This document shows, in pieces, positions 23,180-27,234 of a stretch of 64,000 nt of DNA; the stretch's first letter is position 1, and each line of letters starts with the position of its first letter. The notes under the pieces are model-generated. The model searched no databases. It saw nothing but the letters and a program-made list of their open reading frames with translations, and was not told where the DNA came from. Location of the stretch: assembly GCA_002842515.1 (NCBI GenBank), contig PHDC01000001.1, positions 1,240,001 through 1,304,000 of the forward strand, written 5' to 3'. The translations under genes were made by a program, and so were the position numbers. Source of the stretch: Bacteroidetes bacterium HGW-Bacteroidetes-5. GTDB taxonomy: Bacteria > Bacteroidota > Bacteroidia > Bacteroidales > UBA932.

Positions 23180-24184
23180 TTAGAGAAGAGAGACTCCTGC
23201 CAGTTCTAACTCTTCTCTCATCTCATCGGACCATATTCCTACCTGTACCTCTCCAATATGCCTCTTTTTTAACATAAACATACAGACTCTGGACTGCCCT
23301 ATTCCGCCACCGATACTTTGAGGAAGGCGTCCATCTAATAGCATTTTATGGAAAGGGAGCAGAGCCCTCTCTGGACACTCTCTCACACTAAGCTGGCTTA
23401 AAAGAGTATCCCTGTCTACCCTAACCCCCATAGAAGATAGTTCAAGAGCACACTCCAGAGTGGGATGCCATACAATAATGTCTCCGTTAAGACCAAAGTA
23501 ACCCTCATCGTTTTTTGAGCTCCAATCGTCATAATCCGGTGCTCTCCCATCGTGAGGCTCTCCGTTAGAGAGTTTGTTGCCGATGCCTATTAGAAATATT
23601 GCTCCATACTCCTTGGCAGCTATGTATTCACGCTCCTTTACACTTAAAGCCGGGTATCGAACCAGCAGTTCTTGGGAGTGAATGAATGTTATCTCTGCCG
23701 GCAATACCGGCAGAATCTGGGGGTATCTCTCAAACACCTCCATCTCTACGCATCTGAGAGCTTCATAAACCCTCTTTACAGTGCTCTTAAGCCGTGCCAG
23801 AGTTCTCTCTCCTGCATCTATGTGTTGCTCCCAATCCCACTGATCTACATATACCGAGTGTAAGTTCGTATAATCTTCATCCGGCCTGAGCGCCCTCATA
23901 TCTGTGAGAATCCCTCTATCTGCCTCTATGCCAAGCTGCATCAGACGCAGTCGTTTCCATTTTGCCAGAGAGTGTACAACCTGTGCTTTTTGCTCCCCTA
24001 AAGCCTTTACGGGAAATGAGACCGGACGTTCTGTTCCGTTAAGGTCGTCATTGATACCCGTGCCGTCCAGAACAGCAAGTGGAGATGAGACCTTAATGAG
24101 GTTAAGTTGTTGTGCCAGGTGTTTAGTAAAGCGATACTTAACAAAGGTTATCGCTTTTTCTGTCTCTAAGATTTTTTGATCCAT
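23180..24184 (-). CDS. asnA: Aspartate--ammonia ligase (asparagine synthetase A)
   Basis: A 334-residue enzyme of normal length for AsnA, with a class-II tRNA-synthetase-like fold. Conserved parts seen are the early TEKAITFVKYRF, the substrate loop SPLAVLDGTGINDDLNG, FPVKALGEQKAQVVHSLAKWKR, the ILTDMRALRPDE stretch, the VDQWDWE motif and the C-terminal SIGGGIGQSR ATP site. It makes asparagine from aspartate, ammonia and ATP. The 5' region carries a promoter, two Asn-rich leader peptides, each with an intrinsic terminator, and nearby dyad operators, so expression is expected to rise when charged tRNA-Asn is short. The unknown membrane-protein gene follows 48 bases downstream. Confidence 0.97.
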   Translation of the reverse strand: MDQKILETEKAITFVKYRFTKHLAQQLNLIKVSSPLAVLDGTGINDDLNGTERPVSFPVKALGEQKAQVVHSLAKWKRLRLMQLGIEADRGILTDMRALRPDEDYTNLHSVYVDQWDWEQHIDAGERTLARLKSTVKRVYEALRCVEMEVFERYPQILPVLPAEITFIHSQELLVRYPALSVKEREYIAAKEYGAIFLIGIGNKLSNGEPHDGRAPDYDDWSSKNDEGYFGLNGDIIVWHPTLECALELSSMGVRVDRDTLLSQLSVRECPERALLPFHKMLLDGRLPQSIGGGIGQSRVCMFMLKKRHIGEVQVGIWSDEMREELELAGVSLL

Positions 24185-24253
24185 TTTATTTGATTTTAAA
24201 TTGATTGATTATTTCTATTTATCTATGCTAAGTACCGGGTTATCGTTGATATG

Positions 24254-24285
24254 AAAAAAAAAGACCCGCCAAAAATGGCGGGCCT
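24254..24285 (-). terminator. Attenuator terminator 2 of the asnA leader
   Basis: On the minus strand a 10-bp stem (AGGCCCGCCA with TGGCGGGTCT, one G-T pair) closes a TTTT loop and is followed by nine T. It begins 3 bases after the stop codon of the second leader peptide and ends about 70 bases before asnA. Its 5' arm contains CGCCATT (24274-24280), exactly complementary to AATGGCG inside the leader-peptide coding region (24306-24312), which provides an antiterminator. Confidence 0.92.
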
Positions 24286-24287
24286 CT

Positions 24288-24368
24288 TTACAATAGAGTT
24301 ACACTCGCCATTGGTGGTGGTCTGTTATTATTGTTATTATTATTGAAACTAAATGTAACCTCTCTCAT
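24288..24368 (-). CDS. asnA leader peptide 2 (seven consecutive Asn codons)
   Basis: A 26-residue reading frame with ATG at 24368 and TAA at 24288. It reads MREVTFSF, then seven Asn in a row (AAT AAT AAT AAC AAT AAT AAC), then RPPPMASVTLL. The stop codon is directly followed by an intrinsic terminator and then asnA. By analogy with the his, trp and thr leaders, a ribosome waiting for charged tRNA-Asn would halt on the Asn run. That leaves the downstream AATGGCG free to pair with the terminator's 5' arm so that transcription reaches asnA. The proline triplet just after the Asn run could add a further pause. The peptide itself probably has no other function. Confidence 0.9.
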   Translation of the reverse strand: MREVTFSFNNNNNNNRPPPMASVTLL

Positions 24369-24420
24369 TGTCTTGTTTTTGTTTAACCCTTTTTTACGAT
24401 CTATGTTGAATTTAAGAAAT

Positions 24421-24447
24421 AAAAAAAGCCCCCCGAATGCGGGAGGC
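24421..24447 (-). terminator. Attenuator terminator 1 of the asnA leader
   Basis: On the minus strand an 8-bp stem (GCCTCCCG with CGGGGGGC, one T-G pair) closes a CATT loop and is followed by seven T, then A and TTT. It lies 28 bases after the stop of the first leader peptide. CCTCCC in its 5' arm (24441-24446) is exactly complementary to GGGAGG within codons 20-21 of that peptide (24488-24493), giving the alternative antiterminator pairing. Confidence 0.88.
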
Positions 24448-24475
24448 CGTTTAGTGTTTATAATATTGTGAATAT

Positions 24476-24550
24476 TTATAACAATAACCTCCCTGCCCGA
24501 ATGTAATTATCATTCAGATTATTAAAGAGATTATTATTAATTTTTATCAT
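24476..24550 (-). CDS. asnA leader peptide 1 (Asn-rich)
   Basis: A 24-residue reading frame with ATG at 24550 and TAA at 24476. It reads MIKINNNLFNNLNDNY and then IRAGRLLL, so 7 of the first 15 residues are Asn (codons AAT). It starts roughly 15-20 bases after the predicted transcription start and is followed by terminator 1. The GGGAGG bases in the Gly-Arg codons near its end can pair with the terminator's 5' arm; a ribosome that reaches the stop would cover them and allow termination, whereas one halted at the Asn codons would not. This is a second, independent attenuator in front of the same gene. Confidence 0.87.
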   Translation of the reverse strand: MIKINNNLFNNLNDNYIRAGRLLL

Positions 24551-24571
24551 ATAGTTTCTGCTATTGTATTG

Positions 24572-24604
24572 CGAAGGTAAAAAAATTTAATTAAAAATGA
24601 CAAC
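24572..24604 (-). promoter_or_regulatory. Predicted promoter of the asnA leader transcript
   Basis: On the minus strand TTG (within GTTG, 24604-24601) is followed after 21 bases by TACCTTCG (24579-24572). This fits the Bacteroidota -33/-7 arrangement (TTTG, 19-21 bases, TAnnTTTG) with one mismatch in the -7 box. Transcription would start near 24565, just ahead of leader peptide 1. Confidence 0.6.
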
Positions 24605-24743: not shown

Positions 24744-26174
24744 ATGGATCGTAAACCTGCTGTTGCCGGTAAATTCTATCCACAGAAGGCTGCCGAATTA
24801 CAAAATGAGATAGAGAGGTTATTCTCAACAGCTACACCGGGCAAGGGTAAAAAAGTGAGAGCTTTAATAGCTCCTCACGCCGGTTACATCTTCTCCGGAG
24901 AGGTAGCAGCATCTGCGTTTGCGCAGATAGATAGTGGAACAAAATACAAAAGAGTATTCGTTATAGGATCTTCACACACAGCCGGCTTTAAAGGGGCATC
25001 AATATATTGTGAGGGTGATTTTCTAATGCCATATGGGAAGGAGATTGTTGATACCAAATTGGGGAGAGAGCTTACAGAAGATTATCCCTCTCTCTTCACC
25101 TCAAATCCTTCACCTCACATTAATGAGCATAGCCTGGAGGTCCAGCTCCCATTTGTCAATTATCTCCTTAAAAGTGGCTATACGATAGTACCTATCATTA
25201 TCGGAACCGACGACCCGACTATCTGCAGAGAGATTGCAAAAGTACTTAAACCCTTTTTTATAGAGGAGAACCTTTTTGTGATAAGTACAGATTTTTCTCA
25301 CTACCCCGGCTACAAAGATGCCAATGAGACAGATAGTATCACAAAGAGTGCAATATTAACCAACAACCCCTCGATTCTGCTTAAAGCCCTTAAAGAGAAC
25401 TATCAAAAGAGGATCAAGGGGCTCTCAACATCCCTTTGCGGAGCGAGTGCCGTGCTAGTACTAATGAATATCACAGAGGGTAATCCTAAAATTAAATACG
25501 GTGCCATAGATTATAAAAACTCAGGCGATAACATCTACTACGGCGATAAAGAGAGAGTTGTCGGGTACTGGGCAATCACTGTTTGCAAAGAGCCTCTGCA
25601 GAGGTCCTCTCTTGAAGCGTCTGCAGCAGGATTTGAAATATCTGCAGATGAAAAAGAGAGCTTGCTCAGGATAGCAAAGGAGTCCATTGATGTAACTGTT
25701 TTAAAAAGAGGCAAAAACAGAATAAGAGTTAAAGATACCTCAGGAGTGCTATCGGCAACCTGCGGAGTTTTTGTAACACTGCACAAAAAAGGGCGATTAA
25801 GAGGGTGTATAGGTCGAATAGAGAGCAACATCCCCCTATATAAAGCTGTTGAGGAGGTTGCCGCACTAACTGCATATTACGACTCTCGCTTCCCTCCCGT
25901 TGGCCCGGATGAGCTCAAAGATCTCGAAATTGAGATTTCTGTACTCTCTCCCCCTGTAAAAATTAGAGATATCTCTCAAATAAAACCGGGAGTACACGGC
26001 ATTATCATAAGGCGAGATAACAGGTCGGGAGTATTTCTTCCGCAGGTTGCCTTAGAGACGGGATGGAGTCTCGAAGAGTACCTTGGACACTGCTCCAGGG
26101 ATAAGGCCGGAATTGGTTGGGATGGGTGGAAGAGTGCAGATATCTACATCTTTACCGCAACAGTTTTGCAGTAA
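24744..26174 (+). CDS. Memo-AMMECR1 fusion (AmmeMemoRadiSam proteins B and A)
   Basis: A 476-residue two-domain protein. Residues about 1-270 are a MEMO1-like domain (RKPAVAGKFYP, LIAPHAGYIFSGEVAA, GSSHTAGFKG, EHSLEVQLPF, STDFSHYPGY), whose histidines and acidic residues form a metal site related to extradiol dioxygenases. Residues about 290-476 are an AMMECR1 domain with the hallmark RLRGCIGR and AALTAYYDSRFPPV. In many bacteria and archaea these are separate genes near a radical-SAM gene; here they are fused and the radical-SAM gene is convergent, with one base between stop codons. The biochemical role of the trio is not established; it has been proposed to modify a small molecule or a nucleic acid. 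It shares a regulatory region with asnA. Confidence 0.93.
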   Translation: MDRKPAVAGKFYPQKAAELQNEIERLFSTATPGKGKKVRALIAPHAGYIFSGEVAASAFAQIDSGTKYKRVFVIGSSHTAGFKGASIYCEGDFLMPYGKEIVDTKLGRELTEDYPSLFTSNPSPHINEHSLEVQLPFVNYLLKSGYTIVPIIIGTDDPTICREIAKVLKPFFIEENLFVISTDFSHYPGYKDANETDSITKSAILTNNPSILLKALKENYQKRIKGLSTSLCGASAVLVLMNITEGNPKIKYGAIDYKNSGDNIYYGDKERVVGYWAITVCKEPLQRSSLEASAAGFEISADEKESLLRIAKESIDVTVLKRGKNRIRVKDTSGVLSATCGVFVTLHKKGRLRGCIGRIESNIPLYKAVEEVAALTAYYDSRFPPVGPDELKDLEIEISVLSPPVKIRDISQIKPGVHGIIIRRDNRSGVFLPQVALETGWSLEEYLGHCSRDKAGIGWDGWKSADIYIFTATVLQ

Positions 26175-26175
26175 A

Positions 26176-27234
26176 CTACTCCCAAACACCTGCAATCTTC
26201 TCTTTACAAGAGCTGCAGGAGCCATTCAAGATGTTGTTTTGGATTACTATATAGCCATTTCTCTCTATAACAACTCTACCGCAAGCAGGACATATTGTGC
26301 TCTCACCAGCAAGAGAGGGGGAGTTGCCAATATAGACAAATTTTACTCCTGCATTTTTCGCAATCTGTTGAGCCTCTTTTAAAGTTGATTCAGGCGTGGG
26401 AGGTAGATCTTTTAATATGAAGGTTGGGAAAAACCTGCTAAAATGGATAGGGTTATCACTGAATCCGTTATCAACCAGCCATCTGCACATCTTTTCTATC
26501 ATCTCAGGCGAATCTGTCATTCCCGGAATAAGTAGATTTGTAATCTCAAGCCAAACTCCACTCTCATGCAAAATCTTCAGCGAATTCAGAACAGGATCCA
26601 GAGATCCGCCGGTAAGAGTGCGGTAGATCTTATCATCAAAACATTTTAGGTCAATGTTTGCTGCATCAAGAGAGCGGGATAACTCCTTTAGAGGCTTCTC
26701 ATTGATATATCCGTTAGAGACCATTGCTGTTTTAACTCCTCTCTTTTTTGCAGATTGTGCTATCTGCAGCATATACTCATAAAAGACAGTAGGCTCTGTG
26801 TAGGTAAATGCTATTGCCGGCACACTCCTTTTCAAAGCCTCTTCAACTACTGCATCCGGCAGGAGAAAATAGTTATCTGTTTCCGATGGAGATATTTGAG
26901 AAATAGTCCAGTTCTGGCAATTGAGACATCTAAGATTGCACCCTGCAGTAGCCAGTGATAAAATTTCGGTGCCTGGAAAAAAATGAAACAACGGCTTCTT
27001 CTCTATTGGGTCTACCGATATGGAGCAAGGGTTTCCAAAGGCTGTTGTATAAAGCACTCCGTCAATATTTATCCTAGTCCTGCAGATTCCGCTCTTTCCA
27101 TCCCCTAAAATGCAATCGTGTGGGCATAGAGTGCAGCGAACAGATCTGATTTCAGACGAGTCTGAACTGCACCCGGTACTCTCTTGAAAAGCTGCCGGGT
27201 GAATATTAAATCCCTTATAATTAGAATTTTTCAC
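26176..27234 (-). CDS. AmmeMemoRadiSam system radical SAM enzyme
   Basis: A 352-residue radical-SAM protein with the PflA-like cluster motif CNLRCLNC (C-x3-C-x2-C) after FPGTEILSLATAG. An extra N-terminal cysteine set, CTLCPHDC...GICRTR, and a C-terminal set, CPACGRVV and CSSCKEK, mark this subfamily and probably bind further metal. The start is GTG at 27234; no internal Met precedes the conserved region. It converges on the Memo-AMMECR1 gene and is preceded 9 bases upstream by the PH-domain gene. Expected chemistry is 5'-deoxyadenosyl radical formation with S-adenosylmethionine; the substrate is unknown. Confidence 0.93.
   Translation of the reverse strand: MKNSNYKGFNIHPAAFQESTGCSSDSSEIRSVRCTLCPHDCILGDGKSGICRTRINIDGVLYTTAFGNPCSISVDPIEKKPLFHFFPGTEILSLATAGCNLRCLNCQNWTISQISPSETDNYFLLPDAVVEEALKRSVPAIAFTYTEPTVFYEYMLQIAQSAKKRGVKTAMVSNGYINEKPLKELSRSLDAANIDLKCFDDKIYRTLTGGSLDPVLNSLKILHESGVWLEITNLLIPGMTDSPEMIEKMCRWLVDNGFSDNPIHFSRFFPTFILKDLPPTPESTLKEAQQIAKNAGVKFVYIGNSPSLAGESTICPACGRVVIERNGYIVIQNNILNGSCSSCKEKIAGVWE

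Follow-up and report, generated by a model that had tools for sequence, protein, structure and literature searches.

Why would a single gene for asparagine synthesis stand behind two attenuators that both appear to respond to asparagine? Attenuation is usually pictured as one switch per operon, and the classical trp, his and thr attenuators are single, whereas the asnA leader in the window (the whole 64-kb stretch of DNA analysed in this study) appears to be a natural series of two switches for the same amino acid. The regulated gene, asnA (23180..24184, minus strand), encodes an aspartate-ammonia ligase and was assigned as a TIGR00669 equivalog (410.9 bits; cut-off 292.8). The amino acid that the Asn-rich leaders would sense matches the product pathway of this downstream gene. 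We consider it very probable that the asnA transcript starts upstream of the first leader, leader I, and crosses two serial ribosome-mediated attenuators that read charged tRNA-Asn. The sequence comparison gives good support for a serial attenuation of asnA by a single amino acid. The preliminary description had placed two complete units in series before asnA, and the sequence, the predicted folds and the comparison with relatives bear this out; the division of the units into two classes was not part of that description and is added here.

Read on the minus strand from position 24604 to asnA, the leader region contains ORF I, terminator I, ORF II and terminator II in this order. Each unit consists of an Asn-rich mini-ORF, a protector, an antiterminator and an intrinsic terminator whose predicted pairings are mutually exclusive, and all features described below lie on the minus strand. 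A promoter-like -7 box (TACCTTCG, 24572..24579) agrees in 5/6 positions with TAnnTTTG, which we take to be the Bacteroidota -7 promoter box, and the ATG of leader I follows 29 nt downstream. Leader peptide I (MIKINNNLFNNLNDNYIRAGRLLL, 24476..24550), a type I leader with seven Asn, was taken from the list of ORFs and is kept in relatives. The protector hairpin I (1:2 pairing, 24479..24539) was predicted by RNA folding and agrees with own versus swapped pairing over 36 type I units; its first Asn triplet and the Leu-Phe codons are paired with AGGGAGGTTATTGTTA in 16 bp plus an inner helix of 8 bp. In antiterminator I (2:3 pairing, 24441..24493), GGGAGG at 24493-24488 pairs with CCTCCC at 24446-24441, as also seen in pair counts from 33 relatives, and the duplex has a predicted energy of -15.6 kcal/mol. 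The intrinsic terminator I (3:4 pairing) with its U-tract occupies 24420..24448, the stem running from 24448 to 24427, and was identified by pattern scan, folding and pair counts.

The second unit follows the same plan. Leader peptide II (MREVTFSFNNNNNNNRPPPMASVTLL, 24288..24368) is a type II leader from the list of ORFs, likewise kept in relatives, with seven contiguous Asn followed by RPPP. Antiterminator II (24275..24311) joins ATGGCG at 24311-24306 and the following bases to GAGGCCCGCCAT at 24286-24275, with a duplex energy of -13.3 kcal/mol, and the intrinsic terminator II with its U-tract was found by pattern scan and folding at 24250..24289 (stem 24289-24258). Compared with dinucleotide shuffles, the fold of unit I has a z score of -5.79 and that of unit II a z score of -4.64, and 0/200 shuffles were as low in each case. 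No Rfam family reached its gathering score in the window, the best being Phe_leader with 30.8 against 55 bits, and no T-box or riboswitch family was found among the 45 Rfam matches to E 10. The divergent neighbour of asnA encodes a fused AmmeMemoRadiSam B/A protein (24744-26174, plus strand), which is adjoined on the opposite strand by its radical SAM partner (26176-27234).

The alternative pairings were assessed by duplex energies at the own locus in comparison with partners swapped between loci, applying 2000 permutations. The locus of G023 is near-identical to that of the window and was excluded from this count as well as from the gap, spacing, promoter, cross-pairing and class-likeness counts. 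For type I units (n=36), the 2:3 pairing averaged -15.3 with the own partner and -12.4 with swapped partners, and the 1:2 pairing -16.4 and -12.0; 0/2000 permutations were as low in either case. For type II units (n=19), the 2:3 pairing gave -12.3 and -9.8 (0/2000 as low) and the 1:2 pairing -7.9 and -6.4 (2/2000 as low). Type II antiterminators were better than the shuffled mean in 18/19 units, type II protectors in only 13/19; the protector holding the control codons is clear in type I and weaker in type II.

An alignment of 33 type I units was examined for covariation. The divergent units L122, L139 and L140 were left out of this alignment and were included in the duplex-swap and Asn-spacing counts. 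In terminator I, 91.2% of the cells were paired and 20 cells were changed on both sides, values that 0/500 shuffles reached in each case; five pairs were changed on both sides, a count reached by 20/500 shuffles, and a slide by one column still gave 18 changed cells, near the observed counts. In antiterminator I, 81.5% of the cells were paired (0/500 shuffles), with five pairs (3/500) and 10 cells (10/500) changed on both sides and 15 further pair types (52/500). A slide by two columns also gave 10 changed cells, yet only 44% pairing. The covariation of antiterminator I is modest.

The distance from the end of the last Asn codon to the first base of segment 2 that is paired has a median of 12 nt (range 6-16) in type I and of 14 nt (range 1-17) in type II. 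Because this spacing is close to the cover of a ribosome, given as 12-15 nt from the P site in one report (PMC3641672), a ribosome stalled at the Asn codons would leave segment 2 mostly free, and by the same spacing a ribosome at the leader end would cover segment 2 in most units. Cross-pairing between the units was considered as a candidate and rejected, since pairing within the own unit was stronger in 13/14 tandem loci for unit I (exception L139) and in 11/14 for unit II (exceptions L094, L178 and L239). Cross-pairing being mostly weaker, the two stages look insulated, with these exceptions.

The two units of the window belong to distinct classes. Type I leaders have Asn triplets interleaved with Leu, Phe or Ser, often followed by an IRAGRLLL-like stretch; their segment 2 is GGGAGG- or GGAAGG-like and the terminator arm is mostly CCTCCC or CCTTCC. 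In type II leaders, three to seven Asn are contiguous or nearly so and are followed, after zero to three residues, by Pro; segment 2 is GGCGGG-like and the terminator arm often GCCCGCC-like. The mean number of Asn per leader is 8.0 in type I (n=36) and 6.2 in type II (n=19). Covariance models of the two classes were applied to asnA of 21 genomes, where R1 scored 51-131 bits on unit I and R2 43-96 bits on unit II, with cross scores of at most 53 and 36 bits, respectively. Wherever a genome had both units, each scored higher with the model of its own class, narrowly so for R2 in G442 (43.0 versus 36.4); the matching scores are not independent, as most of these units had served to train the models. 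In 14/14 tandem loci, unit I resembled a unit I of another locus more than the unit II beside it, and the corresponding result held for unit II in 13/14. A recent local duplication is therefore unlikely and was rejected as an origin of the pair.

How widely the double arrangement occurs was assessed with a detector for asnA leaders that required, after a start codon, at least four Asn within eight codons and then a hairpin of at least six pairs, at least four of them G-C, with a U-tract, all within 500 nt; "none" in the following counts means none by this detector. AsnA was present in 23/25 genomes of the genus sample, 60/149 of the family sample, 159/393 of the order sample and 23/395 of the class sample. 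Named GTDB contigs contributed 60 asnA loci, several of which repeat genomes of other samples, and upstream stretches of 252 loci were scanned, duplicates counted in. The 23 positive genomes of the genus, including that of the window, comprised four with both units (G000, which is the window, G023, G007 and G012), 13 with type I only, four with none and two (G002 and G009) that were too short, having 38 and 109 nt of upstream sequence. Two of the 13 type I-only genomes were assigned by hand, as the strict hairpin rule missed the mismatched terminator of L021 and L022 (G018 and G001); this hand assignment to type I was used for both loci on the tree described below and for L022 in the leader counts. 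Those members of the genus that carry names are Bacteroidales assembled from metagenomes. The AsnA of G012 (L024) aligns in two parts, which are separated by about 28 additional codons that keep the frame and contain no stop.

In other genera of the family 48 genomes were positive; loci from 19 of these (L025-L043) were scanned, and 0/19 carried a leader unit. Of the 159 positive genomes in the order sample, 140 were inspected, one match being looked at in each of the several genomes with two AsnA matches; nine had both units, seven type I, five type II, 118 none, and one was too short. Among 11 genomes of the class sample from outside the order, two had both units, three type I and six none, and the 60 named loci gave four with both, 11 type I, two type II, 40 none and three short. 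In total the tandem was found in 15 distinct genomes from at least eight families and more than one order. Eleven of these lie outside the genus of the window (G198, G277, G455, G518, G259, G442, G249, G343, G852, G815 and the MAG CSSed165cm_559, L094), and type I precedes type II in 15/15. The comparison of Asn-rich leaders before asnA across Bacteroidales, which the preliminary description had suggested, thus shows the double arrangement recurring beside single units of either class and loci with none, and the absence from close relatives that would have spoken against it was not what was found, with 4/23 genomes of the genus, the window included, carrying the pair in addition to the 11 outside. 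Two units are nevertheless dispensable, since close relatives such as G024 have one and 118/140 genomes of the order sample have no leader.

The tandem state requires nine changes on a tree built from 85 AsnA rows, where it is spread over several deep clades. Family f32, which has type II only, forms a single clade, and G024 falls inside the tandem clade of the window. In G024 (L003), type I stands alone upstream of asnA, and its terminator is followed by about 100 nt of spacer; since the other members of the clade have two units, a loss of unit II is likely. We read the overall history as that of an old pair from which one unit or both were lost repeatedly. The tree alone gives no direction of change, and repeated assembly of the tandem may also fit it.

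The preliminary description had named a dedicated internal promoter as a finding that would make the upstream unit a separate RNA. The distal unit might be a separate non-coding RNA or a relic, with a second promoter between the units driving asnA through the proximal attenuator alone. The stem of terminator I is separated from the ATG of leader II by 58 nt in the window and by 89 nt in G007, gaps that could indeed hold an overlapping promoter, but the same gap is only 14-28 nt in 12/14 distinct tandem loci. A perfect TAnnTTTG precedes the ATG of the first leader by 12-50 nt in 20/41 loci (2.9% in shuffles), whereas before the second leader it was found in 0/14 tandem loci (2.2% in shuffles). 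With a looser 5-of-6 rule, applied to slightly different stretches, a box precedes the first leader in 38/41 loci and the second in 7/14, a weak contrast given that shuffles yield 49% and 38%, respectively. The short gaps together with the lack of a perfect box before leader II argue against an internal promoter, and no second promoter is recognisable in the sequence. The distal class also stands alone before asnA in many relatives and is therefore no relic class. We regard a separate distal RNA as quite improbable.

Only slightly less improbable is that one unit alone is regulatory and the other a decaying remnant. Single-unit states are common, as in G024 with its type I unit inside a tandem clade and in f32 with type II, and unit II of L107 pairs weakly, its antiterminator reaching only -3.3. 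However, leader ORF, spacing, antiterminator and terminator are intact in both units of nearly all tandem loci, including the window, and the likeness of each unit to its own class elsewhere indicates that neither is a recent copy. The most doubtful explanation by far, which we hold to be almost certainly wrong, is that the Asn-rich ORFs arose by chance in AT-rich leader DNA and that the hairpins serve as ordinary terminators for other transcripts. In DNA of this composition AAT is common, and it makes up 227/289 of the Asn codons in type I leaders. Against this, a generic detector of our own, which combines mini-ORF, terminator and antiterminator for 21 residue classes, returned the two asnA units as its sole matches on both strands of the 64-kb window and 0 matches in six shuffled copies of one strand (simple 2-mer shuffle). 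In 0.8 Mb of the same genome it gave only four matches, three of them before genes that look cognate, and the asnA leaders are kept across families.

From the architecture of two serial attenuators on one transcript, we infer leader translation, ribosome stalling, termination and a product rule as follows. A ribosome stalled at the Asn codons would cover segment 1 and leave segment 2 free; segment 2 would then pair with the terminator's 5' arm, and RNA polymerase would read on. A ribosome at the end of the leader ORF would cover segment 2, and the terminator would form. Without a ribosome, the 1:2 protector would form and the terminator would form too. Expression of asnA would require that RNA polymerase passes both terminators, and readthrough would therefore equal two Asn-dependent probabilities multiplied together, provided that the stages are independent. 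On this condition the small leaks of the two stages at high Asn would likewise be multiplied, and so would the fold-change. Doubling may multiply or sharpen the response, or it may set two thresholds.

The prolines of the type II leaders suggest a further property of the second stage. In 18/19 type II leaders, and in 0/36 type I leaders, Pro-stop comes after the Asn run, or PPP or PPG if the ORF continues; the type II leader lacking the pattern is L106 (CPPFKRR). In 5/19 type II units the ORF extends into the terminator or beyond its start, in three of them by 38-68 nt. According to one study, PPPPPP and PPG stall ribosomes and EF-P relieves the stall; in cells lacking EF-P, termination increased when a polyproline motif lay upstream of an intrinsic terminator (PMC5021804). 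Base pairing alone leaves the prolines mostly unexplained, since only 7/19 type II units reach a predicted pairing of 0.5 between their CC doublets and the bases downstream, although these units are related by descent. With ample Asn, a proline pause just before segment 2 would keep segment 2 covered by the ribosome and would favour termination. We tentatively propose, at somewhat less than even confidence, an old two-stage Asn switch in Bacteroidota, in which stage I is plain and trp-like and the proline pause of stage II makes termination robust.

The asnA leader shares with the trp, his and thr attenuators a leader ORF rich in the cognate codons, the 1:2, 2:3 and 3:4 pairings and a biosynthetic gene downstream, but differs from them by having two classes in series for one amino acid; the trp attenuator is described as single in one report (PMC3641672). 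The same report describes tandem attenuators in Salmonella mgtCBR, mgtM and mgtP, for the different signals ATP and proline (PMC3641672). Here, too, two leader ORFs and two serial attenuators share one leader, and one of the ORFs has proline codons. The mgtCBR hairpins, as described there, are unlike intrinsic terminators, whereas both asnA units have intrinsic terminators, and in contrast to the two-signal design of mgtCBR both asnA leaders are Asn-rich, as judged from codon content alone. In the mefA/msrD operon, two leader-peptide transcriptional attenuators respond to macrolides; according to the report, the second serves msrD alone, and drug-bound ribosomes rather than tRNA charging are the sensor (PMC10314930). 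The rimP-leader of some Gammaproteobacteria has tandem terminators and a potential antiterminator, and no amino-acid leader peptide appears in the available part of its description (PMC2965389). In Bacteroides thetaiotaomicron, mini-ORFs in 5' UTRs have been called reminiscent of leader peptides (PMC7366714). The asnA pair, too, points to attenuation by leader peptides as a mode by which Bacteroidota regularly control amino-acid genes.

Among the listed titles and abstract openings, with little coverage of the subscription literature, no described Asn attenuator or same-amino-acid tandem in Bacteroidota was found. A comparative study of attenuation by Lopatovskaya et al. from 2010 may cover Bacteroidota. 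The parts are known singly, and the pairing of two classes for one amino acid in series appears to be new within the literature searched. The fixed-order pair, scattered over deep branches, and its single-unit relatives provide ready comparisons for the benefit of a second attenuator, with lower leak, steeper response and wider range as possible gains.

Leaders for other amino acids were also noticed. In the 0.8 Mb of the genome of the window, the four matches of the generic detector were single Trp (L351 11954, plus strand), Leu (L356 4638, minus strand, before a leuA-like gene) and Phe/Tyr (L367 17730, plus strand) leaders and one doubtful match, with no second tandem in this 0.8 Mb. The genes following the Trp, Leu and Phe/Tyr leaders are presumably cognate, judged from protein starts. 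Weak covariance-model matches were listed in 21 genomes, and 16 places among those listed were looked at; ten or eleven of the 16 were leaders for other amino acids or mixed Asn/Lys. L321, L324, L325, L326 and L328 were rejected as leaders and resemble plain terminators or nothing, and of the secondary type II model matches L319, L320, L321, L325 and L328, 0/5 were a type II Asn unit.

In relatives, a Lys leader (L314) precedes an aspartokinase-like gene, an Asn/Lys leader (L315) an asd-like gene, a Cys leader (L316) a cysE-like gene and an Ile/Val leader (L319) an ilvE-like gene, and single His (L320), Trp (L323) and Leu (L327) leaders precede hisG-like, trpE-like and leuA-like genes, all gene names being read from protein starts. 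G852 has two further tandem leaders in addition to its tandem Asn units. On contig C329 (L317, 1549-1850), two Phe/Tyr leaders, MNTTTKYFFFNYFYFKQ and MMQNNYFLFYYFHFCHQRE, each with a terminator, are followed by a gene that is prephenate-dehydratase-like as named from its protein start. On contig C276 (L318, 1494-1830), two Cys/Met leaders, each with a terminator, precede a gene named in the same way as sulfite-reductase-like.
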